DNA from: a virus
Length of the DNA: 41,429 nt
Reading direction: 5' to 3' (one strand)
IMG/VR virus record: IMGVR_UViG_3300028840_001713
Coordinates: 1-41,429 of that record
A program made the translations under genes and the position numbers. Under the pieces are notes generated by a model. It saw only the letters and a list, made by a program, of their open reading frames with translations. It searched no databases and had not been told where the DNA came from. This document shows positions 13,091 to 41,429 of this stretch, in pieces (the first letter of the stretch is position 1; each line of letters starts with the position of its first letter).

Positions 13091-13434
13091 TAAAATATGC
13101 AGAGTGCGAAGATATTCTTAAGCGTATTTCCGATAGTAAAGGGGACCGCGATTTTTGGTTAAATATGCTTATTAACGAGGGCAAGGTAGAACCAAAAAAG
13201 ATGACAGCATTGGAAAAGGCGAGGGAATATTATAATAAAATATATAAAGAAACTAATGGACCTTTAAAAATGACAACAAAATTAAAAGAACTTTACGAAA
13301 AAGCCATAACCGAAGCCAAGCAGATTGAACCAGATGTTATTGAATGGCTAAAAAGTTTTGACGAATACTCATGGTCATGGAATAGAGAATATGCGCAAAA
13401 ACTACTAAAATATTTTGGGGAGGTGATAGAATGA
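13087..13434 (+). CDS. Early hypothetical protein, helical
   Basis: The chosen start is ATG 13087 (GGGGAGAAA upstream, ATGA overlap with the previous stop), giving 115 residues. It is predicted mostly helical, with Lys/Glu-rich segments and an aromatic C-terminal region (FDEYSWSWNREYAQKLL). No catalytic motif is visible. It is part of a chain of overlapping small early genes. Confidence 0.65.
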   Translation: MIKYAECEDILKRISDSKGDRDFWLNMLINEGKVEPKKMTALEKAREYYNKIYKETNGPLKMTTKLKELYEKAITEAKQIEPDVIEWLKSFDEYSWSWNREYAQKLLKYFGEVIE

Positions 13435-13559
13435 TTGACTGGAGCTTAAAAAAAGACATGGCAGAGGCTAGGGGCTGGATAACAGATCAAAATATTTGTG
13501 ATGAGTGCGAAATAGAATATTGTGATGATTGTTATTTACATGAGACATACGATGACTAA
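13431..13559 (+). CDS. Small Cys-rich protein with paired CxxC
   Basis: It runs from ATG 13431 (GGAGG 7 bases upstream, overlapping the previous stop) to TAA at 13557-13559, 42 residues. The sequence CDECEIEYCDDC gives two CxxC pairs five residues apart, consistent with a small zinc knuckle or rubredoxin-like site. It is acidic overall. One of five genes in this block carrying Cys pairs; function unknown. Confidence 0.6.
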   Translation: MIDWSLKKDMAEARGWITDQNICDECEIEYCDDCYLHETYDD

Positions 13560-13671
13560 CGACCAAAAAATTGAAAAAATCTGGCAAGAAATAAAGGACT
13601 TTGAGAAGCGTATAAAAGAATGGCTCAAAAACCCTTTACCACCGCCACCATATAGGAGGAAAAAGAAATGA
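13552..13671 (+). CDS. Small helical protein with polyproline tail
   Basis: It runs from ATG 13552 to TGA 13669-13671, 39 residues: one charged helix (about 3-27) followed by PLPPPPYRRKKK. It overlaps both flanking genes, and the GGAGG before the next gene lies in its last codons. The RBS is weak (GAGACATACG), so translation would depend on coupling. The proline-basic tail looks like an interaction motif. Tentative gene. Confidence 0.5.
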   Translation: MTNDQKIEKIWQEIKDFEKRIKEWLKNPLPPPPYRRKKK

Positions 13672-16111: not shown

Positions 16112-16816
16112 ATGTCAGATATAAAGTGGATAAAGATAACAACAGATATCTTTGATGATGAAAAAATTAAACTAATTGAGAAGCTTCCAGAAGGCGATAC
16201 AATGCTAGTTATATGGTTAAAGCTTTTAGCGTTAGCAGGAAAAAGAAATGATTTAGGTATGGTATATCTTACAAGGGATATTCCATTTACAGCAGATACC
16301 CTTGCAGATATAATGAATAGAGATAGTAAAGTTGTAATGATGGCACTTAACACATTTGTAAGCTTTGACATGATCGAAATTGTTGACGACTTTATAAAAA
16401 TAGTCAATTGGGAGAAACACCAAAATATTGAGGGAATGGAACGCACTAAAGAACTAAGAGCTTTAAGAAATAAAAGGTATTATGAGAAAAAGAAGCTTAT
16501 AGATGATAAGAGTAAAATTAAGACGTCTTATAGACGCCAACAAGATACTTTAGATAAGATTAGATTAGATAAGAATAAATATAGAGATAACATCTTACTT
16601 AAAGAAACAGAATACAATACACTTATAGAAAAATATGGAATAAACAATGTTAATAAAATACTAGATAAACTATCATCCTATAAGCTAAGTAATGGAAAGA
16701 AATATAAATCAGATTATGGAGCAATAAACAACTGGGTTATTAGCTCTCTTGGCATTAAAGAAGAAACGCCCGATCTGATATATAAAGATCAATCCGCGGA
16801 GGTGATAGATATATGA
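16112..16816 (+). CDS. Phage replisome organizer / replication initiation protein
   Basis: The start at ATG 16112 follows GGGGGAGAGGG; earlier in-frame codons give a hydrophobic extension without an RBS. The 234-residue product begins with the typical phage replisome-organizer N-terminal domain (IKWIKITTDIFDDEKI, then LPEGDTMLVIWLKLL, 'VYLTRDIPFTADTLADIM', 'WEKHQN'). It has a basic linker and a C-terminal DnaD/gp-O-like helical part (about 165-225). It would bind the origin and load the DnaB-type helicase encoded downstream. The origin may lie inside this gene, as in related phages, but I see no clear iterons. Confidence 0.8.
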   Translation: MSDIKWIKITTDIFDDEKIKLIEKLPEGDTMLVIWLKLLALAGKRNDLGMVYLTRDIPFTADTLADIMNRDSKVVMMALNTFVSFDMIEIVDDFIKIVNWEKHQNIEGMERTKELRALRNKRYYEKKKLIDDKSKIKTSYRRQQDTLDKIRLDKNKYRDNILLKETEYNTLIEKYGINNVNKILDKLSSYKLSNGKKYKSDYGAINNWVISSLGIKEETPDLIYKDQSAEVIDI

Positions 16817-17451
16817 AAATATTAAACTTATATGCAGGGATAGGCGGCAACCGTAAACTATGGGGAGATGATCACGATATAACAGCAGTCGAATATAACC
16901 AGCAGATTGCAGATATATATAAAGATTTCTTTCCAAATGATAAAGTAATTGTTGCTGACGCCCACGAATATTTATTAAACCATTACAAAGAGTTTGATTT
17001 TATATGGAGTTCTCCGCCGTGTCCTACTCATTCAGATATGAGAAAAGTTTTTGTTAAGGCGGGGCGGTATGATGTTAAATACCCAGATATGGCGCTTTAT
17101 CAGCAAATAATATTATTAAAGCATTATTGTAAATCAAAATGGGTTATAGAAAATGTAGTTCCTTATTATGATTATTTAATTGACCCGAATGTTATTTTAC
17201 ATAGACACCCTTTTTGGTGTAACTTTCCAATAAAAGCAAATCTTTTTAATGATAAAAGAAAACATAGGCAAATAAAATCAAATAGTGTTGTTTATGGAGT
17301 GAGCCTAGAAAAATATAAAATCACAGGAAAGTATGATAAGGTCAAAATATTAAGAAATATGGTAAACCCTGAAGTCGGAAAGTACATTTTAAACGAAGCT
17401 ATGGGGATAATAGAATATGATAAAAATGATTTATTCAAGGGGATATTATGA
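16813..17451 (+). CDS. DNA (cytosine-5) methyltransferase, short
   Basis: This 212-residue protein has C5-MTase motifs in order: motif I NLYAGIGGNRK (5-15) for AdoMet binding, motif IV SSPPCPTHS with catalytic Cys70, motif VI IENV (112-115), and a motif X-like segment NMVNPEVGKYIL near the C-terminus. The variable target-recognition region is small, so the chain is much shorter than the 300-400 residues usual for Dcm-type enzymes. Small phage versions like this exist. It could methylate phage DNA against host restriction. Coupled to both neighbours by ATGA-type overlaps. Confidence 0.88.
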   Translation: MKILNLYAGIGGNRKLWGDDHDITAVEYNQQIADIYKDFFPNDKVIVADAHEYLLNHYKEFDFIWSSPPCPTHSDMRKVFVKAGRYDVKYPDMALYQQIILLKHYCKSKWVIENVVPYYDYLIDPNVILHRHPFWCNFPIKANLFNDKRKHRQIKSNSVVYGVSLEKYKITGKYDKVKILRNMVNPEVGKYILNEAMGIIEYDKNDLFKGIL

Positions 17452-17678
17452 CAAGACGTGAGCAAATAATAAAACATCATCCGGAATTAATACAAGATTT
17501 TGTATATCTAAGTAAAGAGAGAAAAGAATTAACAACAGCAATTTTAGAAAATAGATTAGAATATACAGAAGAAGAACTAAACAGAATATGTTTTGAAAAT
17601 CAAAGTTTTGCAACATTACAAGAAGAAAAAACAGCTATAAAAGGATTAGAAAAATGGATGAAAAAAAATCAAAAATAG
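17448..17678 (+). CDS. Small helical protein in replication operon
   Basis: This 76-residue, all-helical, Glu/Lys-rich protein starts in the MTase stop (ATGA) and overlaps the helicase gene by 25 bases. No motif is recognised. Its position directly before a DnaB-type helicase would suit a helicase loader or accessory factor, but its size is far below DnaC/DnaI loaders and there is no Walker motif, so this is speculation. Confidence 0.55.
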   Translation: MTRREQIIKHHPELIQDFVYLSKERKELTTAILENRLEYTEEELNRICFENQSFATLQEEKTAIKGLEKWMKKNQK

Positions 17679-18575: not shown

Positions 18576-19361
18576 ATGAACAAAGTATACTTGATTGATT
18601 GCATGGAATTTATGAAAGATAAGCCAGATAATTATTACGAGCTTGCAATAGTTGACCCACCTTATGGGATTGGGGAGTCGTTTAAAAAACGAGAAAACAA
18701 CCCGTTAAGATGGCACAATCCTAAAAAGAAAATACATAATCCAAAAGAGTGGGATAAAAAAACACCAGATAAAAAATATTTTGCAGAATTATTCAGAATA
18801 AGTAAAAATCAAATAATATGGGGCGGTAACTATTTTGTAGAATATTTAAAAGGTTCTATGGGATGGGTGTATTGGGATAAAAAAAATGGAGATTCTGATT
18901 ATTCAGATGGTGAATTGGCTTTTACATCCTTTAAAAAAGGGCTAAGATCATTTTCTTTTTTATGGCAAGGATTCCAAAAAGGTGAAAAAACTGTGAGAAT
19001 CCACCCAACACAAAAGCCAATAGCCCTTTACAAATGGCTATTAGAAAACTATGCAAAAGAAACAGATTGTAAAAAGTGTGGTGGATTGGGGTATTTAGAA
19101 AATTATGCAGGGTATGAAAACAACATAAAAGATTGTAAAAAATGCAATGGAAGAGGAACCATAAAAGATAAAATATTTGATACCCACGTCGGCAGTGGAT
19201 CAAGTAGAATTGCTTGTTATGAATTAGGTTATGACTTTGAGGGGTGCGAGATTGACAAAGATTATTGGGAAGCACAAGAAAAACGATTCAAAGCAGAAAA
19301 GGCACGAATTGACAATGAGTTTTATTTAGATGATCAAGGATTGTTTGGGGGTATAAAATGA
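18576..19361 (+). CDS. DNA adenine/N4-cytosine methyltransferase with inserted DnaJ-like zinc knuckle
   Basis: This 261-residue beta-class amino-methyltransferase has motif IV DPPYGIG (27-33), then HPTQKP (143-148), then the AdoMet-binding motif I as FDTHVGSGSS (201-210), the permuted order of beta-class enzymes. Between HPTQKP and motif I there is an insert of about 35 residues carrying CKKCGGLG (165-172) and CKKCNGRG (187-194), the CxxCxGxG repeats of DnaJ zinc domains. The insert may help target DNA or proteins. Likely modifies phage DNA; specificity unknown. RBS GGGGG precedes the ATG. Confidence 0.87.
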   Translation: MNKVYLIDCMEFMKDKPDNYYELAIVDPPYGIGESFKKRENNPLRWHNPKKKIHNPKEWDKKTPDKKYFAELFRISKNQIIWGGNYFVEYLKGSMGWVYWDKKNGDSDYSDGELAFTSFKKGLRSFSFLWQGFQKGEKTVRIHPTQKPIALYKWLLENYAKETDCKKCGGLGYLENYAGYENNIKDCKKCNGRGTIKDKIFDTHVGSGSSRIACYELGYDFEGCEIDKDYWEAQEKRFKAEKARIDNEFYLDDQGLFGGIK

Positions 19362-19735
19362 AAGACCGATACTTACAAAAACTCTGGAGAGATGCAGTAT
19401 TAAAAAAAGATAATTATAGATGCGTAATGTGTGGTATTGGTGGCGAGCATAACTTACAATGTCACCACTTTATAAAAAGGCGCGTTAGGGTTTTACGGCA
19501 TGATTACAGAAACGGGTTTGCATTATGCTATGGATGCCATGCAAAGGCTCACACTAAAGCAGGCGAGCAAAGATTAATTAAAATAATGGGTATACAAACT
19601 TTTGAATATTTAACAAAAAAAGAAGTTATTAACTTAAAAGATCACATTAGAATTGTAGGAATTTCAAGGGAAAAGTTTTATTTAAATATGGGTAAAGAAT
19701 TAAAAGAATATATAAGTAATAAAGATATTGACTAA
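19358..19735 (+). CDS. HNH endonuclease
   Basis: This 125-residue protein has an N-terminal HNH fold: zinc Cys22/Cys25, the HH pair at 36-37 (LQCHHFIKRR), Asn52, and Cys57/Cys60 with H61 and H65 (ALCYGCHAKAH). A C-terminal helix-turn region (about 66-125) may bind DNA. Overlaps the methyltransferase stop. It could be a freestanding homing or restriction-type nuclease, or a packaging-linked nuclease, but it is far from the terminase. No intron is next to it; the group I intron is at 40.3 kb. Confidence 0.83.
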   Translation: MKDRYLQKLWRDAVLKKDNYRCVMCGIGGEHNLQCHHFIKRRVRVLRHDYRNGFALCYGCHAKAHTKAGEQRLIKIMGIQTFEYLTKKEVINLKDHIRIVGISREKFYLNMGKELKEYISNKDID

Positions 19736-19851: not shown

Positions 19852-20766
19852 ATGTTTAAGAATAAAGTTGTTTTAATAACAGGTGGCACGGGATCACTTG
19901 GAAAACATTTGACCAATCGTTTACTACAAACAAATCCATCAAAAATTATTATATATTCACGAGATGAACTGAAGCAATCAGAAATGAAAAAGCAATTTCA
20001 AGACGATAGATTAAGATATTTCATAGGTGATATACGCGATAAAAACAGGCTTAATACAGCAATGAAGGGTGTAGACTTCGTAATTCATACAGCAGCATTA
20101 AAACAAGTTGATACACTTGAATACAATCCTTTTGAAGCCGTTAAAACAAATATATTAGGTGCTCAAAATGTTATTGAGTGTTCTATAAACAATAAAGTAA
20201 AAAAAGTAGTGGCACTTAGCACGGATAAAGCTTGCCAACCAATAAATCTATATGGGCATACAAAAGCAGTAAACGATAAACTTTTCCAACATGCTAATGT
20301 ATACGCAGAGAACCATAAAATTATATTAAACGTTGTACGATATGGAAATGTAACAGGTTCGCGTGGTTCTGTTATACCTTTTTTTAAACAGCTTAAAAAA
20401 GAGGGGGCAGAATTTTTACCAGTTACACATCCTGATATGACAAGATTTTGCATTACTTTAGAACAAGCGGTTGAATTAATAATTACGGCTTTTAACGACG
20501 ATGAAGGTGGTAAAATATTTGTGAGTAAATTGCCCAGTTATAGAATACTTGATTTAGTTGAAGCATTTGAAATGGGGGCGGTTATAACCACTATAAGACC
20601 GGGAGAAAAACTTCATGAACAAATGATATCAATATATGATAAGTATGATGAATATAAAGATTATTATATCATTCATAAAAACGGTGAAAAAACAGGTTTA
20701 GATTATAACAGTAAGAACAATAAATTTATGAGTGTTCAAGAACTTAAGGAAATGATAAATGATTGA
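19852..20766 (+). CDS. pseB: UDP-GlcNAc 4,6-dehydratase, PseB/FlaA1 type
   Basis: This 304-residue short-chain dehydrogenase-fold enzyme probably converts UDP-GlcNAc to a 4-keto-6-deoxy sugar, the first step to pseudaminic acid and related sugars. NAD-binding GGTGSLG is at 11-17, the active-site Asp-Lys in STDKACQP at 125-126, and the YxxxK pair Y134/K138 in LYGHTK. It has the short soluble form, without the membrane domain of FlaA1. First gene of the cassette; its 3' end overlaps the synthase gene by 8 bases. The enzyme class is clear; stereochemistry (inverting versus retaining) is inferred. Confidence 0.88.
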   Translation: MFKNKVVLITGGTGSLGKHLTNRLLQTNPSKIIIYSRDELKQSEMKKQFQDDRLRYFIGDIRDKNRLNTAMKGVDFVIHTAALKQVDTLEYNPFEAVKTNILGAQNVIECSINNKVKKVVALSTDKACQPINLYGHTKAVNDKLFQHANVYAENHKIILNVVRYGNVTGSRGSVIPFFKQLKKEGAEFLPVTHPDMTRFCITLEQAVELIITAFNDDEGGKIFVSKLPSYRILDLVEAFEMGAVITTIRPGEKLHEQMISIYDKYDEYKDYYIIHKNGEKTGLDYNSKNNKFMSVQELKEMIND

Positions 20767-21637
20767 ATGGATCGCGGACCCTGCAAGTAATCACAATGGA
20801 TCTCTGGTAATGGCTCAAAGATTAATTCATGCAGCAGCGACCGCAGGGGCAACGGCAATAAAATTTCAGTTCTTTACAGCTAAAACATTAATAGATAGAA
20901 AAGGTTTTGAATATATAGGAAAATTAACACATCAAAGCAAATGGAAAGATGATATATATGAAACGTACCAGAAATATGAAACACCGTTAGAATGGATTCC
21001 AACACTTGCAAGAGATTGCGAAAGGGCAAATATAAAATTTATGGCAACGCCTTACAATAAAGAAGCTGTTGATGCTTTGAATGATTATGTAACAGCCTTT
21101 AAAATTGGAAGCGGTGATATAAACTATTTCCCTTTAATTCAATACGTAGAAAAAACAGGCAAAAAAATGTTATTTGGTTTAGGTGCTGCTACACATAAAG
21201 ATGTTGAAGAACTCTATAGGCATTTAAAAAGCCACGAAAACAAAGTATTCATGCAATGTAACACTAATTACTCTAACGGAAAAAATAATTATAAATATTT
21301 AAATTTAAAATACCTAGATTTATTACCTAGCACATACTCGGAAAAAGGGTTAAGTGATCACACAAAAGATTTGTTTCCGGTACATGTTGCCATTGCATAC
21401 GGCGCTAGATATATTGAAAGACATTTTAAAATAGAAAAAAATAATAGCCCTGATGATCATTTTTCACTAGATCCGCGAGAATGGAAAACAATGATTGTAA
21501 GTGGCAATAAGTGTTTAGAGTCATTAGGCACAGGAAAGAAAATTATTGAACCTAACGAAAAAGAAACACGAATTATCCAGAGAAGAAATCCTTTTAATTG
21601 GTTACGCCCAGATATAACTTATAAGGTTTATGAATGA
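20759..21637 (+). CDS. NeuB-family nonulosonic acid synthase, C-terminally short
   Basis: This 292-residue TIM-barrel enzyme would condense phosphoenolpyruvate with a 6-carbon amino sugar to make a 9-carbon sialic-type acid (PseI/LegI/NeuB; SpsE in Bacillus). Family signatures: IADPASNHNGS at the N-terminus, 'ATAIKFQFF', 'FMATPYN', 'FKIGSGD', 'GLSDHT', and a C-terminal HF..DDHFSLDP metal/PEP region near residues 224-240. The usual C-terminal SAF (antifreeze-like) domain of about 60 residues is absent. Exact product cannot be told from sequence alone. Overlaps both neighbours. Confidence 0.85.
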   Translation: MIEWIADPASNHNGSLVMAQRLIHAAATAGATAIKFQFFTAKTLIDRKGFEYIGKLTHQSKWKDDIYETYQKYETPLEWIPTLARDCERANIKFMATPYNKEAVDALNDYVTAFKIGSGDINYFPLIQYVEKTGKKMLFGLGAATHKDVEELYRHLKSHENKVFMQCNTNYSNGKNNYKYLNLKYLDLLPSTYSEKGLSDHTKDLFPVHVAIAYGARYIERHFKIEKNNSPDDHFSLDPREWKTMIVSGNKCLESLGTGKKIIEPNEKETRIIQRRNPFNWLRPDITYKVYE

Positions 21638-22998
21638 AAATATTATTAATTAATCCAATAACTTATGGATCAATAGATACATTCATAGAAGATTCAAAGA
21701 GAATGAAAATTAACACCGATGAACCGATAGGGTTAATGTACCTAGCCGCGAAATACATAAAAGAAGGGCATGATGCAGAAATATTAGATTTACAAATAGA
21801 AACGCTAAAATATAGAAAGTTTGACAAAGAAATTATTTCAATTATTTTACAAGCTAGATTAAATAAATTTAAACCTGATATGGTAGGAATATCATTTTTA
21901 TATGAACTAAATAAAGATTGTGCATTGTGGGTAGCCCAAAGAGTAAAAGAATATGATAGTAATATAAAAACTATTGCTGGAGGGCTTTATGCTTCTATGA
22001 TGGATGAATTACCATATATTGATGAAATATTAAAAGGTGATCAAACACCAAATTGGATGGAGCTAAAACCTTACAGAGATAATCTGCTAATTGGTGAATA
22101 TGGAATATTAGGGCGCACTGTAATAGATAGGGTATACAAAGAGAATTGCAGAGTAGCAACTATTCAAATAAGTAGGGGATGCCCTTGTAAATGTACTTAT
22201 TGCTCAGGTCATGCAATAACAAAAAGAAAATACACACATAGACCTGTTAATGATATCACAGAAGAAATAAAAGAGCTTAAAGAGAAGTATGATATTGAAG
22301 TATTTATTTTTAATGAAGAAAACAATGGGGTTAATTTAAAGAAAACGAAAGAACTTTACAAGGCTTTAATACCATTAGATATAAAATGGATTTCTAATGC
22401 TGGTTTTTATGTTTCTAATATGGATCAGGAATTTGTGAATTTAGCAATGGATTCAGGTTTATTATATTTTAATTTAGCATTTGAAAGTGGTTCTAAAAGA
22501 TTATTAAGAGAATTAAAGAAAAGTGAAAAAATTGTTGATAATGCAAAACAAATAATGAATTGGATTAGAGAAAAAAATGATTTAATGTATTGTATTGGTT
22601 TTTTTATGTTTGGGTTTGCCAATGAAACTTGGGATGATGTTTATACCAGCATGGAATTTATGAAAGGTTTAGATTTAGATTGGTATCAGGTTAATATGCT
22701 ACAAGTTTTCAAGGGGACGGATTTATATGATGATTATAAAAAAAATGGAAATATAGGTAAAATAAAAGATGCACATTATTTATCTAGTACAGTTGAAAAT
22801 TCAATAATACCAGCAAATGAATTAAATGCATATATCCAACAGAATTTAAACATAGGATTAAATTTTTTAAATAATAGAACATTAAGAAAAGGTAATTTTT
22901 TACAGTGTAGAAGGGATATGCAACATATTTTAAATATTACGAATAATGAACATAGTTATGCAAAAAAAATTATGGAGGTGTTAGGGTGTTCATATTAG
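21634..22998 (+). CDS. B12-binding-type radical SAM enzyme
   Basis: This 454-residue protein has an N-terminal Rossmann-like domain (1-150, ILLINPITYG, 'PIGLMYLAAKYIKEGHDAEILDLQ', 'MVGISFLY', 'TIAGGLYASMMDELPYIDEILKGD') typical of cobalamin-binding radical SAM proteins. The Fe-S motif CPCKCTYC follows (C183, C187, C190). The B12-coordinating DxHxxG is not seen, so cobalamin may be bound without a lower His ligand or not at all. Members tailor sugars, lipids and RNA. In this cassette it could methylate, epimerise or deoxygenate the sugar; the reaction is unknown. Confidence 0.85.
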   Translation: MKILLINPITYGSIDTFIEDSKRMKINTDEPIGLMYLAAKYIKEGHDAEILDLQIETLKYRKFDKEIISIILQARLNKFKPDMVGISFLYELNKDCALWVAQRVKEYDSNIKTIAGGLYASMMDELPYIDEILKGDQTPNWMELKPYRDNLLIGEYGILGRTVIDRVYKENCRVATIQISRGCPCKCTYCSGHAITKRKYTHRPVNDITEEIKELKEKYDIEVFIFNEENNGVNLKKTKELYKALIPLDIKWISNAGFYVSNMDQEFVNLAMDSGLLYFNLAFESGSKRLLRELKKSEKIVDNAKQIMNWIREKNDLMYCIGFFMFGFANETWDDVYTSMEFMKGLDLDWYQVNMLQVFKGTDLYDDYKKNGNIGKIKDAHYLSSTVENSIIPANELNAYIQQNLNIGLNFLNNRTLRKGNFLQCRRDMQHILNITNNEHSYAKKIMEVLGCSY

Positions 22999-23585
22999 GA
23001 ACGACTAATTTCGGACAAAAATATAATGGATCAGAATTAAGTAAAAAAGAATGTTTCAAGATTCTGGAAGAATATAAAAAATTAGGCGGTGTTTATTTAG
23101 ATACTGCTTTTAATTATGGGAATGCTCAGGAGATTATAGGAGAATTTGGAGCGGATCTGTTTAAAATAAATACTAAGTCATGGCACGATGGCGAATTAGA
23201 AAAAAGTTTAGAAATATTAAAAGTAAATAAGATATACAGTTGTATGACAAGAGATTCAACACATTGGATAGGTTATGTTTTAAAGCAACGTGTAAAAAAG
23301 GGTATAATAGAAAAATGGGGATCAAGTATTTATTATCCGCATGAATTAAGAGGGGATGCAAATATAACTTTTATACCGTTTACTAAATACTTTTTAGATT
23401 ATATGCCAGTTATGATGCTTCACGGTGACGTCTGGATAAGATCATATTTTAATTTAGATAGTAATTTAACCAGCGAAGATTTTAAAAAGTATGAAAGAAA
23501 AGATTTGGGGCATGAAGTACATTTTGTTGGCGGTGTAGATAACGTTTTCCAACTAAGGGAAAACATGGAGTTTTTTAATGCTTAA
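22986..23585 (+). CDS. Aldo/keto reductase-like protein, short
   Basis: This 199-residue product starts at GTG 22986 (GGAGG upstream, overlapping the previous gene). N-terminal residues 1-55 carry the aldo/keto reductase signature, LGTTNFGQKY then VYLDTAFNYGNAQEIIG with catalytic Asp39 and Tyr44; K and H equivalents may lie near KINTKSW and MLHGDV. Full AKRs have about 280-330 residues, so part of the barrel is missing, yet the chain is continuous with no frameshift trace. Similar short AKRs occur in bacterial nonulosonate/sps-type clusters to my knowledge. Likely a sugar keto-reductase or a non-catalytic relic. Confidence 0.7.
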   Translation: MFILGTTNFGQKYNGSELSKKECFKILEEYKKLGGVYLDTAFNYGNAQEIIGEFGADLFKINTKSWHDGELEKSLEILKVNKIYSCMTRDSTHWIGYVLKQRVKKGIIEKWGSSIYYPHELRGDANITFIPFTKYFLDYMPVMMLHGDVWIRSYFNLDSNLTSEDFKKYERKDLGHEVHFVGGVDNVFQLRENMEFFNA

Positions 23586-24330
23586 TCTAACAATTATAAT
23601 TTGCACAAAAAATTCAGAAAATAATATAAAAAAAGTTTTAGATAAGTGTAAGAATTATAAAGTAATTTTAGTTGATTGTTCAATAGATGATACTTTAGCA
23701 ATTGCCAGAAAATATAAAAATGTTTATGTTGTAAAAGATAAGGGAAAAGGTTTAGCAGCCGCAAGAAACGCAGGATTAAAACATGTAGTAACAGAGTACG
23801 TTTTATTTTTGGGAAGCGATAATTTAATGACAACAGATTTATACATTTTATCATCACATTTACATAATTATTCATGTGTAAGTTGTATGACAATTCCCAA
23901 TAATGCCTTTAAGAATTATTTAGAAAAGCAAACATATAAACGATGGCAAAAGAAATTTCCCGCAGGAGAACAAAAAATTGTAGGCACTCCGTATATTATG
24001 AGAACGAGCATTTTAAAAGAATATATGTATGATAGTTCTATGTCACATTCAGATGATACAGATTTATTTAAAAGAATGTATGATGATGGGCATAGATTTT
24101 ATAGGTCAAATGTGAAAGTAATAGATTTAACTGTGAATAATTTAAAAGAAATAAAGAGTAGATTTATTCGTTATGGGATAAGTGACAGAGAATTTGCAAA
24201 AAAATATAAAAAAGGCTTTTTAAATTTCTTTTATGCTTTTCGTGCGGAGTGGATAGGATTTGATTTAGTTTATATGCCTTATTATTTATTAGTAGTATTT
24301 TGGAGGTTATATGCCAGAGTCTTTAGTTAA
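23578..24330 (+). CDS. GT2-family glycosyltransferase
   Basis: This 250-residue protein is a GT-A fold enzyme that moves a nucleotide-activated sugar. Motifs: LTIIICTKNSENNI at the N-terminus, VILVDCSIDDT, KGKGLAAARNAGL, and a DxD-like GSDN at 79-82, then a 'SDDTDLFKRMYDDG' acceptor region. The C-terminal 30 residues are hydrophobic (two short segments ending RLYARVFS), suggesting membrane anchoring at the inner leaflet. As the only clear glycosyltransferase in the cassette, it may attach the cassette's sugar to a host glycan or protein. Confidence 0.85.
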   Translation: MLNLTIIICTKNSENNIKKVLDKCKNYKVILVDCSIDDTLAIARKYKNVYVVKDKGKGLAAARNAGLKHVVTEYVLFLGSDNLMTTDLYILSSHLHNYSCVSCMTIPNNAFKNYLEKQTYKRWQKKFPAGEQKIVGTPYIMRTSILKEYMYDSSMSHSDDTDLFKRMYDDGHRFYRSNVKVIDLTVNNLKEIKSRFIRYGISDREFAKKYKKGFLNFFYAFRAEWIGFDLVYMPYYLLVVFWRLYARVFS

Positions 24331-25075
24331 TTGTTTCATACAAGCCCGCACAGGTTCAAAAAGGTTACCAGACAAGGTTTTACTTAATCTCTGCGGAAAA
24401 AGCGCAATACAACGATGTTATGAGCGTGTTATGATGTGCGAGAGAATAAACAATGTAATTGTTATTATTCCAGATAATGAGCCAGAGTTTGCAGAATATT
24501 TATGTGAAGTAGGAATACCATTTTTTAAGGGTGATCCAGATGATTTATTAACAAGATATTGCCAAGCAAGTGAACAATTCCCATGCCAAAATATAGTAAG
24601 GATTACAGCCGATTGCCCGTTAATAGATCCAGCAATAATTGACGATGTGATCAAAACACACTTAGAACATGGTAACGAGTTTACGACTAATGCGTGGTTA
24701 GGATTAGAAACTTATCCCGATGGCATGGATGTATCAGTTATCAGGAAGAAAACACTAGATAAGCTAAATAAAACTATAACCAATGTTATACATAGAGAAC
24801 ATGTTGTAACATACATCATGGAAGATTCAATACCATTTAAAACAGAACACATTGCCAGTGAAATAGATTACAGTGAATATAGATTAACACTAGATCATAT
24901 TGAGGACTATTATGTTTTAAGAATATTAAGCGATATTCTGTTTATAGATTATGTTACATTTTACGGTGAAAACTTAGATAATTTCGGGTTAGATATGATA
25001 ATAGAAAAGCTGGATGAAAACCCATTGTTGAAAAAAATAAACAGTATGCACAAAAGAAACGAGGCTATATTATGA
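24311..25075 (+). CDS. SpsF-like cytidylyltransferase (CMP-sugar synthetase family)
   Basis: This 254-residue nucleotidyltransferase probably activates a nonulosonic-type acid as CMP-sugar. The signature CFIQARTGSKRLPDKVL sits at 8-24 (the R-x(3)-KR-P motif), RITADCPLIDP follows at about 97-107, and HREHVVTYI and LDHIEDYYVLR lie further on, all typical of the SpsF branch related to KdsB/NeuA. Its closest relatives by motif pattern are spore-coat polysaccharide protein F enzymes, often beside NeuB/SpsE and GSA-type aminotransferase genes. Overlaps both neighbours. Confidence 0.87.
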   Translation: MPESLVNCFIQARTGSKRLPDKVLLNLCGKSAIQRCYERVMMCERINNVIVIIPDNEPEFAEYLCEVGIPFFKGDPDDLLTRYCQASEQFPCQNIVRITADCPLIDPAIIDDVIKTHLEHGNEFTTNAWLGLETYPDGMDVSVIRKKTLDKLNKTITNVIHREHVVTYIMEDSIPFKTEHIASEIDYSEYRLTLDHIEDYYVLRILSDILFIDYVTFYGENLDNFGLDMIIEKLDENPLLKKINSMHKRNEAIL

Positions 25076-26208
25076 ATGTATTAGGTTTATATAGTAAGCG
25101 CCCTGAATATTTCTGTAGTGGATTTCCTATATATCAGAAGAAAGCAAAGGGATGTGAAATAACAGACATTTCAAACAAGAAATACATTGATATGTCACAC
25201 ATTGGATTTTCAGCATGTGTATTAGGATACTCAAACCCTATAATTAATGCAATGGCAAAGAAAGCTATAAACGACGGATCTTTTAGCTTACTTAATTCAT
25301 TTAATGATAAAATAAATGCAGATAATTTTATAAAAATTCATAAATGGGCAGATAAAGTGAGATTCACACGATCCGGCGGGGAGGCTTGCCAAGTAGCTGC
25401 TGAAATAGCCAAAGCAAACACTAACAGAAAAGGCATTTTACAATGTGGTTATTCAGGGTGGAAGTTACAAAACGAAAACCATAGAAAATTTACATATAAT
25501 GATATAGAGAGTTTTTATCAAGTTATTAACAAAAATATAGGAATAGTAATTGTCGAGGCTATACGGTATGAAGAACCATCGCCCGAATGGATAGAGCTTC
25601 TAAAAGAGATTAATAAGAAATATATATTGATAATTGATGAAATTACAAGCGGTTTTAGATTTGCCAATGGTGGCATTCATGAAAAATGGGGGCTTCGTCC
25701 TGCAATGGCTGTATTTGGTAAAAGCATGTCAAATGGATTCCCATGTGGTGCTGTATTAATGAGAGGTGATATAGAAGAAGGCAATAAATTTATTTCATCA
25801 ACTTACTGGACTGATAACGTAACGCCTGCGGCTATAACAATGAGCATGATGTTACATAGGATTTATAGACCTCATTATCTGGCAAAGATCGGAAAAGAGA
25901 TTAAAAAAGTTATAGTAGGATGTGCAGATTATTACCAATTGCCGATAAAAATAAATGAAGTAGATCACATTATAAAGTTTACATTTGATCATGAAAAAAC
26001 AAATATACTAGAAACACTATATACGCAATTAATGTTAAAAGAAAAATTTCTTGCAACTAATATAATTTACCCATCATACGCACATAAAATAAAACATCTA
26101 AAAGAATTTGCAAGGGCAATTTATAAAGTGTTTTTTATTATAAAGAAACATATAAACGATCCCGAAAGAATTTTAATAGGGAATGAAAAAAAACATAAAA
26201 TAACTTGA
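25072..26208 (+). CDS. Class III aminotransferase, GSA-aminomutase-like
   Basis: This 378-residue PLP enzyme resembles glutamate-1-semialdehyde aminomutases. Features: MSHIGFSACVLGYSNP at 41-56, RSGGEACQVAAEIAK at 100-114 (phosphate-binding area, usual SGTEA), LIIDEITSGFRF with D189, and the Schiff-base K217 in FGKSMSNGFPCG. It is about 50 residues shorter than HemL and not next to haem genes, so haem synthesis is unlikely. In sps-type clusters such enzymes probably aminate a keto sugar, the step done by DegT-family PseC elsewhere. Last gene of the cassette; a promoter begins in its stop region. Confidence 0.83.
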   Translation: MNVLGLYSKRPEYFCSGFPIYQKKAKGCEITDISNKKYIDMSHIGFSACVLGYSNPIINAMAKKAINDGSFSLLNSFNDKINADNFIKIHKWADKVRFTRSGGEACQVAAEIAKANTNRKGILQCGYSGWKLQNENHRKFTYNDIESFYQVINKNIGIVIVEAIRYEEPSPEWIELLKEINKKYILIIDEITSGFRFANGGIHEKWGLRPAMAVFGKSMSNGFPCGAVLMRGDIEEGNKFISSTYWTDNVTPAAITMSMMLHRIYRPHYLAKIGKEIKKVIVGCADYYQLPIKINEVDHIIKFTFDHEKTNILETLYTQLMLKEKFLATNIIYPSYAHKIKHLKEFARAIYKVFFIIKKHINDPERILIGNEKKHKIT

Positions 26209-26416: not shown

Positions 26417-26462
26417 AAACCCTGAGAGCCTCTTAATAATGCTCAATTACTCGGGGTTTTTT
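26417..26462 (+). terminator. Rho-independent terminator 1 after the 55-residue gene
   Basis: AAACCCTGAG (26417-26426) pairs over 10 bp with CTCGGGGTTT (26450-26459) with one G-U pair, followed by a T run to 26462. The 23-base loop can fold further (GAGC/GCTC). It closes the unit started at 26205. Confidence 0.75.
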
Positions 26463-39854: not shown

Positions 39855-40704
39855 ATGGCACAAAATACAATACAAAATAGCAGTGTATTATATCCAGAAG
39901 ATGTAATAGTTTATGTAGCTGAATGGTCAACAGATTATACAACAGCAGCAGAGTTATCAAGTGCAACATGGTTAAATCTCGGAAGTTTAACAGAGTTTAC
40001 TGTTGAATCAGCAAACGAAAGTGTTCAACCTGGTTCGTTTAATGTCGAGCATGATCAAGTATTAACAAAAGAAGCAGAAAATATTACTCTTGTATTACAA
40101 GAACTTAATAGTTCTTTAGTACAAATATTACGAGGTGGAATTTCTCAACAAGTAAGTACGTATGTTCCCGGTGGTTCATCTAGTAATTCAGCTGAATTAT
40201 TATATTCAGGCGGAGCAGATACAATCACTCCGTGTATGATAAGATCATACGCAAGTTACTCAGACGGAAGATCAAGACATGTTTATTGGCCTAAAGTGTA
40301 TTATGTCAGCGGTGAAGGGATCGCCGCCTAACTTAGCAATAAGTTATGGAAAAATCGGGTAAATACGGTGAATGCTGAGATTGCAAATACCGTGCTAATC
40401 TTTAAGATTACGAAAGGCTTAAAGACAGCGTAGAGCATAGCAAGTGAATAAATATAACCTTGCCACGAGTGCCCGACAGCCAAAAGGTTGAAAATATATG
40501 CCGAGCTTACAAGAAATGAATTGTAAGAAGTAAGGGATAAAAAGCCCCTACGATAACAAACTGGGTTCTGACAGTCCAAAAGCGCAAGGAACTGGTGAAT
40601 ATGCTGATATGAGCTTTACTATGCAAGCCAGAGAATCAGACGAAGTTACATATAACAGCAGACGGGTATATAAAATAGAAGTAGAATCAACTACTACTAC
40701 TTAA
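39855..40704 (+). CDS. Major tail tube protein, interrupted by a group I intron (exons 39855-40313 and 40585-40704)
   Basis: Exon 1 (459 bases, 153 codons) ends in YYVSG; unspliced it would run into TAA at 40329-40331. Exon 2 (120 bases) resumes in frame after the intron as QGTGEYADMSFTMQ and ends at TAA 40702-40704. The spliced product has 192 residues, a typical size for a siphovirus tail tube protein. Its beta-rich body has 'TWLNLGSLTEFTVESANESVQP', 'VEHDQVLTKEAENITLVLQELN' and the C-terminal 'ADMSFTMQARESDEV'. The position after the tail terminator and before the tail chaperones agrees. AAGGAGG precedes the ATG. The splice sites are predicted, not tested. Confidence 0.85.
40314..40584 (+). 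ncRNA. Self-splicing group I intron, no ORF
   Basis: 271 bases. P1: exon GCGGU (40309-40313) with internal guide GCCGC (40323-40327), giving the required U-G pair at the 5' splice site. P2: TAACTTA-GCAA-TAAGTTA (40329-40346). P3: TCGGG (40355-40359)/CCCGA (40472-40476). P4: ACGGT/ACCGT (40365-40369, 40389-40393), inside the typical CCGTGCTAA segment. P6: TAATCT/AGATTA. P7: GCATA (40435-40439)/TATGC (40497-40501). P8: AGCC-AAAA-GGTT. P9 stems: CTTACAA/TTGTAAG, AGGG/CCCT, ACTG/CAGT. The last base G40584 is the only G that keeps the frame. Extra stem GCAAG/CTTGC between P7 and P3 suggests subgroup IA. P10 is weak. Confidence 0.88.
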
Positions 40705-40713
40705 GGAAAGTAA

Positions 40714-41130
40714 ATGAAAACAATAGATTTAACACTCTTTGAAGGTGAAGGTTTTGAGATAAAAACTAAAACCCGAACTTATGCGATTAACTTTGTTTCT
40801 TCTGTAATGGAACTAAAATTTTTACAGGAGCAAGAAAACATAACTAAGAAATCGAGAGATTTTAAAACATTAGAACAGCAAGACCTAGAAAAATGGAAGC
40901 ATTTAATAAAAAACTCTATTAAAGAAAATGGGGTTGAAGATTTAGATGAAGGTGATATTAATTCACTTAAACCGTTTGAGGTATTAGCTGTAATGATAGG
41001 CTATATACAATTCCTTACAGAGAGAAGTCAAGTAATATATCAGGGACTTAGTGACAAAACTAAAAAAGAGATAGAAGAAATTACAGATGATATAAAAAAA
41101 AAGGAAATGAACAAAGCCTTATCAGAATAA
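40714..41130 (+). CDS. Tail assembly chaperone (gpG-like)
   Basis: This 138-residue protein helps load the tape measure for tail tube assembly. It has an N-terminal beta hairpin (TIDLTLFEGEGFEIKTKTRTYAINFV) and a helical remainder. Position between the tail tube and tape measure genes, plus the A AAA AAG heptamer (41097-41103) shortly before its stop and the overlapping -1 frame, identifies it as the shorter product of the G/GT pair. AGGAAAG precedes the ATG. Confidence 0.82.
   Translation: MKTIDLTLFEGEGFEIKTKTRTYAINFVSSVMELKFLQEQENITKKSRDFKTLEQQDLEKWKHLIKNSIKENGVEDLDEGDINSLKPFEVLAVMIGYIQFLTERSQVIYQGLSDKTKKEIEEITDDIKKKEMNKALSE
41097..41103 (+). promoter_or_regulatory. -1 programmed frameshift site
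   Basis: A AAA AAG, in the phase of the chaperone gene and a known efficient slippery heptamer. A -1 shift here changes the frame so that translation passes 41130 and continues without a stop into the frame that ends at 41348, joining the two chaperone segments. Confidence 0.8.
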
Positions 41131-41348
41131 CATCAATGCTCCTTAGAGAATATAACTTAGGTTATACACCTAGGGAGCTTTTATTCAGAATGGAATGGTG
41201 GGAAGTTATCGGGTTATTATATGCTAGCAATGAGTATATAAGAGATGCTAATGAAGCCCATGCAGAAGCAAGAAAAAAGGCTGAAATAGAGAGAAAAGAA
41301 AAAGATGGCAGCTTAAAGATGCACTTTAGGAGAAAAAGGGGTAAGTAA
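41104..41348 (+). CDS. Tail assembly chaperone frameshift extension (gpT-like part)
   Basis: After a -1 shift at 41097-41103 the frame reads GNEQSLIRITSMLLREYNLG and on to TAA at 41346-41348, adding 81 residues to 130 from the upstream frame for a fusion of about 211 residues. An ATG at 41136 inside it gives 70 residues if initiated alone, but no good RBS precedes that ATG. The region contains 'YTPRELLFRMEWWEVIGLL', a helical domain expected for gpGT-type extensions. It ends overlapping the tape-measure start. Confidence 0.8.
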
Positions 41349-41429
41349 TGGCTAATTTAACAGCCGGTGAGTTGCAAATATTAGTTGATGTTCAAACAGG
41401 CGAGATTGACAAACTTAAAGCAAAATTAA
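41286..41429. repeat. Direct terminal repeat, right copy
   Basis: Exact copy of bases 1-144, offset 41,285. It includes the end of the chaperone extension and the tape-measure start (ATG 41348), which here runs off the end of the window. Confidence 0.95.
41348..41429 (+). CDS. Tape measure gene, 5' fragment repeated at the window end
   Basis: Duplicate of the first 27 codons of the tape measure at 63, cut by the end of the window. It is the same gene, counted twice because a circular molecule was opened inside it. Not a separate gene. Confidence 0.9.
   Translation, partial: MANLTAGELQILVDVQTGEIDKLKAKL

Follow-up and report, generated by a model that had tools for sequence, protein, structure and literature searches.

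A probable IA2-related group I intron of 250 nt in a predicted phage tail-tube gene, and its relatives in other phages

The reading frame of a predicted tail-tube gene in a tailed-phage genome halts early, and coding resumes in frame downstream. We examined if the DNA between the two coding parts is a self-splicing intron, where that intron would end, and how it compares with the group I introns already described in phages. The window is the whole stretch of DNA that was analysed (41,429 nt); its two ends, 1–144 and 41286–41429, are an exact 144-bp repeat of the kind seen in circular assemblies, which makes a complete genome of about 41,285 bp probable. An earlier note, made from the sequence alone, had placed a 271-nt group I intron at 40314–40584. 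The evidence below leads us with high confidence to a group I self-splicing intron, IA2-related, at 40314–40563 of this gene, which would remove itself from the late mRNA.

The interrupted gene and its intronless relatives

The coding parts and the stop between them are as follows.

39855..40313, + strand: exon 1 of the predicted tail-tube gene, codons 1–153, ending ..YYVSG (open reading frame; homologues L002, L003, L141, L005)
40329..40331, + strand: TAA that halts unspliced translation, 5 codons into the intron and before the catalytic core (open reading frame)
40564..40707, + strand: exon 2 of the predicted tail-tube gene, GSDSPKAQGTGEY... through the stop codon (alignment to homologues)

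The unspliced frame from 39855 has 158 codons, its product ending ..VSGEGIAA, and the downstream coding sequence reads ..QGTGEYADMSFTMQARES.. on to the exon 2 stop; the early halt at TAA and the in-frame resumption described in the earlier note were thus borne out by the reading frames and by homologue alignment. Intronless relatives were found in IMG/VR contigs: L002 (83% identical), L003 and L004 (67%), L141 (55%, the sole new homologue from two further alignment-aided scans of viral contigs) and L005 (53%). L003 and L004 are identical in the stretches printed, and four distinct homologues are counted. All four read uninterrupted across the insertion site (YYVSGGAASPKSQGTGEY in L002, FYVSGGSYSAKSQGTGEY in L003, LYVSGGASSNPKAQASGEY in L141), which falls between two glycine codons, both glycines being invariant in the four. 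Joined at the corrected site, the exons would encode 199 aa, and this product aligns without gaps to the intronless L002 protein, also of 199 aa. The 158-aa truncated product would lack the C-terminal 46 residues, which include positions invariant in the four homologues. With model R1 (described below) no intron was found in the relatives' fetched loci or in five whole records, some of these records being fragments. Only one assembled record is known to carry the intron-bearing gene; an 8.4-kb nucleotide search and tblastn of exon 1 against the phage collection gave no matches, and when bacterial genomes were scanned for the tail-tube protein, none of the 45 pattern matches was a relative.

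The interrupted gene very likely encodes the tail tube, as judged by gene order and weak fold matches. Upstream, in order, are a head-tail adaptor-like protein, head closure Hc1, tail completion/Neck1 and a 123-aa gene, followed by the interrupted gene; downstream is a 138-aa ORF, the end of which overlaps with the following frame in a nine-A run (41094), and across the terminal repeat lie a protein of 699 aa that weakly matches tape measure and a Dit-like protein. The protein itself was unrecognised by Pfam, PHROGs and PDB sequence searches. A structure was predicted for an intronless homologue (mean pLDDT 42.6, from a 4-row alignment), and at E≤0.001 it had 22 BFVD matches, of which 10 carry the name major tail or tail tube protein, the other 12 being unnamed, uncharacterised or other virion proteins. 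Its PDB fold matches include the SPP1 and lambda tail tubes, with E≤0.001 in 1 of 249; TM-scores were about 0.3–0.5 and rmsd mostly 7–13 Å. Given the poor model, the low TM-scores and the high rmsd, the fold matches count only alongside the gene order.

Three other places in the window were observed in passing. The nine-A run before the tape measure (41094–41102), also present in L002 and L003, is a likely site of programmed frameshifting for a tail assembly chaperone pair. A block at 19852–26208 resembles nonulosonic (sialic-acid-like) sugar synthesis, with genes for a Polysacc_synt_2 dehydratase, NeuB, a radical SAM/B12 protein, an aldo-keto reductase, a glycosyltransferase 2, a cytidylyltransferase and a class III aminotransferase; it is unexpected cargo in a 41-kb phage and could serve to modify flagellar or surface glycans of the host. 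At 26420–26457, upstream of the gene for the terminase large subunit, there is a match to the abiF RNA of 32.8 bits (gathering score 37), and no AbiF-like protein was recognised beside it.

Boundaries and fold of the intron

The elements of the intron are listed below, with the share of alignment cells that pair where a covariation set of 35 members was scored.

40314..40563, + strand: group I intron, 250 nt (RF00028 and R2 matches, covariation, junction scoring, P10)
40563, + strand: terminal intron G (omega-G), the last base of GATAACAAACTG (related introns, junction scoring, P10)
40309..40327, + strand: P1, exon GCGGU 40309–40313 with guide GCCGC 40323–40327, including U40313.G40323 (direct pairing, fold)
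40317..40322, + strand: 5' part of the internal guide (GGGAUC), P10 partner of the 3' exon start (pairing with GGUUCU 40564–40569)
40327..40349, + strand: P2 hairpin (minimum-energy fold alone)
40355..40476, + strand: P3, 40355–40361 with 40470–40476 (98.0% of cells paired, two-sided changes in 6 of 7 pairs)
40365..40393, + strand: P4, 40365–40369 with 40389–40393 (covariation, 98.3% paired)
40373–40375 with 40383–40385, + strand: P5, only 3 bp (87.6% paired)
40394..40429, + strand: P6, 40394–40395 with 40428–40429 (100% paired)
40399–40406 with 40418–40425, + strand: P6a (98.6% paired)
40433..40502, + strand: P7, guanosine-binding, G40433-C40502, bulge A40434, and 40435–40439 with 40497–40501 (100% paired)
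40440..40463, + strand: P7.1 with loop UGAAUAAAUAUAA (100% paired, two-sided changes in 5 of 5 pairs)
40477..40490, + strand: P8 (94.2% paired)
40506..40551, + strand: P9, 40506–40512 with 40521–40527 (100% paired)
40530–40536 with 40545–40551, + strand: P9.1, one A.C mismatch in the window copy (93.5% paired)

Candidate junctions were scored against the four intronless homologues, taking every pair with a U before the intron and an intron-terminal G (40290–40335 by 40500–40620; 348 junctions). The pair 40313/40563 was top, with a summed alignment score of 2480; the runner-up had 2436. The 5' splice site is accordingly placed at 40313|40314, the left end given in the earlier note, with the U of P1 (U40313.G40323) at the junction as that note had described. 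Among the 20 G's in 40520–40600, only 40563 lets the 3' exon pair with the internal guide over six unbroken base pairs as P10 (3 at most for the others); the pairing is GGGAUC 40317–40322 with GGUUCU 40564–40569, three of its six pairs being G.U, and by chance 115 of 41424 window positions would give full pairing with the guide. Relatives of the intron place the end similarly. The region was searched by blastn (E≤1), and related cores were found in 52 of 50,697 phage records (48 at E≤5e-4) and in 10 of 72,556 plasmid records (9 at E≤4e-5); the phage matches end at query 259–266 (40558–40565) in 46 of the 52 records, and all 13 blastn-found rows have GATAACA close to the 3' end, at the equivalent of 40552–40558, a few bases before 40563. 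Since intronless homologues, P10 pairing and related introns agree, we take 40563 as the right-hand end, and the intron is 250 nt and not 271.

The end at 40584 lies 21 nt too far, and a 271-nt group I intron with the junction YYVSG-QGTGEY is very improbable. Position 40584 is a G and preserves the reading frame; it scores 2349 against 2480, however, and offers no P10, and the GATAACA of the blastn-found relatives maps near 40563 instead. The longer intron would also remove GSDSPKA, seven residues kept in relatives (GGT TCT GAC AGT CCA AAA GCG CAA, just 5' of 40584, encodes GSDSPKAQ), where the four homologues have 7 or 8. The junction is replaced by YYVSG-GSDSPKAQGTGEY, on homologue alignment and P10. 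A 3' site at 40574 was rejected by junction scoring and P10.

A pattern derived from the core gave at least 120 rows in IMG/VR. Among the matches listed, 135 core matches left 75 with anchors and 58 after redundancy (alignment-score ratio 0.88) and length filters; the 35 of these 58 rows whose 5' core is contiguous form the covariation set, alignment A3. The pattern fixes the 5' strand of P7 (bar three positions) and the P7.1 loop, and rows were retained by a script requiring TGAA[T/C] and GATAACA, so these letters are constant in part through the selection itself; the 12 blastn-found loci give an independent view of conserved letters.

Over the 35 members, 97.3% of 1920 cells from P3 to P9.1 were paired, against 30–40% for slid structures, a comparison that favours the real structure to the extent that it was taken from the window copy. 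Double changes carry no such bias, and two-sided changes were found in 43 of 55 pairs. The covariation score was 0.730, the shuffled mean being 0.209; none of 500 shuffles was as high, and none matched the real alignment on any of five measures. The last pair of P9.1, beside an alignment gap, is unpaired in 14 of 35, and four of the six P7 pairs are invariant, in part through the search pattern, which sets their 5' letters. The P7 bulge is coupled to the 40433–40502 pair in 58 of 58 rows (G[A]-C in 42, A[C]-U in 16), the pattern having permitted all four 5' two-letter combinations and left the 3' letter free; G40435-C40501 is likewise a pair in 58 of 58 (G set by the search pattern, C free). 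None of 100 shuffles reached so low a folding energy (z -2.84), and P1, P2, P3, P4, P6a, P7.1, P8 and P9 are present in the minimum-energy fold. C40327 is free to pair in P1 or P2.

The stems P3, P4, P6, P7, P8 and P9, which the earlier note had named, are supported in the covariation set, its P2 appears in the minimum-energy fold, and the core segment CCGTGCTAA that it had named is present at 40390–40398. Taken as a whole, the RNA has the features of a group I intron: a covarying P3–P8 core with a P3/P7 pseudoknot, a G-C pair beside the bulge in P7, a U.G pair in P1, a terminal G and a P10. IA2 introns carry the extra helices P7.1 and P7.2 between P7 and P3; in the window P7.1 is present and covarying and no P7.2 was seen, and inserts at this place in L011, L014 and L017 could be P7.2.

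The standard RNA model RF00028 has a core architecture in common with the window intron, and the Infernal check proposed in the earlier note was positive in part: RF00028 matches 40304–40527 at 33.9 bits (E 5.4e-7 in a 501-nt scan), but the gathering score of 50 was not reached, and the model was absent at E≤1 from a scan of the whole window. Two covariance models were built from the alignment. R2, with 33 rows (the window and L071, whose 5' end is cut in the alignment, left out), scored the window at 218.8 bits (E 1.3e-66, the E-values of such models being rough), and so recovers the window intron without having been trained on it. R1, from all 35 members, scored it at 227.1 bits. Homology to recognised IA2 introns was seen in phage Twort, whose orf142 has three introns, two of them (I2 and I3) IA2: R1 scored two of the three at 47.4 and 33.5 bits with default filters, and R2 scored two at 46.7 and 32.5 bits and the third at just 14.3 bits with filters off and reported none with default filters.

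Proposed splicing, rival readings and mobility

From established group I chemistry we infer splicing, its course and its efficiency. In the late mRNA the intron RNA would fold into P1–P9.1; a guanosine bound in P7 would attack after U40313, held by the U.G pair of P1; exon 1, once released and brought into line with exon 2 by P10, would attack after G40563; and the ligated exons would be translated to the 199-aa tail-tube protein. Translation of the unspliced message would stop at 40329–40331 and give the 158-aa product, and since this stop precedes the core, ribosomes would stay out of the ribozyme.

The placing of the in-frame stop before the core would also suit an intron kept as a regulatory switch, with a functional 158-aa variant or with splicing timed by GTP level or by translation, an idea proposed for phage introns in an excerpt of PMC11878797. 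The intron is absent from all relatives found, which makes a necessary switch unlikely, and the short product would be without the C-terminal residues noted above, invariant positions among them; we regard such a switch as improbable. Rather less probable again is a degenerate or splicing-defective insertion, the phage being a dead variant or one able to make do with a shortened tail tube. The RF00028 score under threshold and the one mismatch in P9.1 would fit a decayed copy; the R2 score and the complete core argue against it, as do P1 and P10, which fit the actual exons, and the flanking exons, which are open and conserved in protein sequence. Translation of phage T4 gene 60 bypasses a coding gap, and the window gene comes from a single record, yet bypass or an assembly artefact has next to no likelihood here, for the gap holds a covarying group I core common to other phages at other genes.

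The self-splicing intron thus remains the preferred reading, and the earlier note was right that it is small and carries no endonuclease frame: no sense-strand ORF of at least 60 aa lies within 40314–40563. An 83-aa antisense ORF (40328–40579, minus strand) had no PDB match at E≤1; similar antisense frames lie over related introns in 12 phage records (tblastn), so this ORF is probably a by-product of RNA conservation rather than a gene. A free-standing HNH protein (19358–19735; PF01844, 26.8 bits, cut-off 21.4) is encoded about 20 kb off, beside a DNA methylase, and is the only one among the 47 window proteins scanned with Pfam. An IStron was also considered, and no transposase was recognised among those 47 proteins (small ORFs and some head genes lie outside the scan). 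With no recognisable endonuclease inside, the intron may now be vertically inherited or moved by an enzyme acting in trans.

Related introns and known precedents

Phage group I introns are usually hosted by DNA-metabolism genes, as an excerpt of PMC11878797 states, in agreement with the earlier note. That note had further considered an endonuclease-free intron in a major structural gene unusual, a view that was not supported: the tail-tube introns of Twort and an endonuclease-free minor-tail intron of BAKA precede it, on the portions of the papers cited here. Twort orf142 encodes the tail tube protein (excerpt of PMC11878797) and has three introns, of which I2 and I3 are IA2 and exon skipping was shown (part of PMC10136302); the orf142 ribozyme is described as intron nucleotides 9–250 (part of PMC4275181). 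In the Twort record three RF00028 matches lie within 16606–17506, all above threshold, and no sense-strand ORF of at least 40 aa was found between the flanking genes (16637–17654). Twort and the window are alike in having group I introns in the tail-tube gene, two of the Twort introns being matched by R2 (46.7 and 32.5 bits); they differ in that Twort belongs to another phage group and has three introns with exon skipping, whereas the window has one, and in that the Twort introns pass RF00028 and the window intron does not. Twort was not among the blastn matches of the window intron.

Other virion genes are also known to be interrupted. According to portions of PMC3706429, a minor tail gene of the Cluster J mycobacteriophage BAKA carries a 265-bp endonuclease-free intron whose splicing RT-PCR confirmed, and the capsid gene of LittleE has an intron too, a capsid-gene intron of Tuc2009 being cited there; on those portions, BAKA/Optimus and LittleE resemble the window in having group I-type introns in virion genes, the BAKA host being a minor tail gene and not the tail tube. 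In crAss-like phages, group I introns occur in major capsid genes (excerpt of PMC7886860), and IA2 makes up over half of viral group I introns (excerpt of PMC11835236). A literature search, with most subscription journals outside its scope, gave no further case of a tail-tube group I intron among the papers listed. In view of Twort, BAKA and the other virion-gene cases, neither the tail-tube host nor the missing endonuclease is new, and the window intron is a new example of a known intron type, with its right-hand boundary corrected.

Closer relatives of the window intron lie in other genes. The terminase introns of crAss-like phages (cr7_1 and cr131_1; L007, L008) belong to the same subfamily in other host genes, as do related cores in Staphylococcus, Clostridioides, Bacillus and Leptolyngbya phages, several with endonucleases; the longest matches of the crAss-like and related cores have 68–75% identity over the core. 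The host genes were scanned where the end of a core match could be recognised and a frame of at least 40 aa came after it (81 of 135 matches, 80 without the window), the frame being picked by length and the counts not dereplicated. Among the matches listed, these 80 downstream frames gave matches to tail completion/Neck1 (14), terminase large subunit (10), NrdD (5) and tape measure (at least 4), and also DNA polymerases and helicases. Upstream frames of at least 50 aa were present for 28 of the 35 members with contiguous core, and in the 27 scanned without the window there were matches to LAGLIDADG_3 (7), LAGLIDADG_1 (3, which may overlap), GIY-YIG (1) and the phrog_4645 endonuclease (9); many relatives, unlike the window copy, thus bear endonucleases. 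In L013 (Clostridioides phage phiCDKH02), L014 (Oenococcus phage Krappator149) and other loci, subfamily introns lie beside tail completion (HK97 gp10-like) or head-tail genes, and in the L013 and L014 records the gene pieces are annotated as separate or hypothetical.

RF00028 recovered all three Twort introns as a positive control (63.6, 97.4 and 100.9 bits). At its gathering score it missed all 34 of the remaining A3 introns, in 33 loci, and its sole match in the A3 loci is a different intron, starting 2 nt beyond a member in L084; at E≤1 it reported none of the subfamily introns in 14 loci. Genes split by A3 introns may therefore be annotated as broken. The L084 locus (13106–13605, minus strand) has the subfamily member at 13605–13382, and the RF00028 match 2 nt further on scores 59.9 bits.

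These introns may form an undescribed, phage-wide branch of group IA that the standard RNA model misses, many apparently broken phage genes, tail genes included, being really spliced; we give this an even chance. The proposed branch would be recognised by the following marks.

P7: GAGCRUA/UAYGCC or AACGCRUA/UAYGCU
Loops and 3' end: UGAAUAAAUAUAA on P7.1, GGAUAAAAAGCC on P9.1, and a GAUAACA(n)G 3' end

The window intron itself is ordinary in kind, and the under-detected subfamily is the more interesting part: it is common in phages, recurs in tail genes and, in all 34 other A3 cases, is overlooked by RF00028 at the curated threshold. For the present phage, automatic annotation would call a truncated 158-aa protein, an ORF that the intron model corrects, and the implication is that one of its most abundant virion proteins would depend on RNA splicing.
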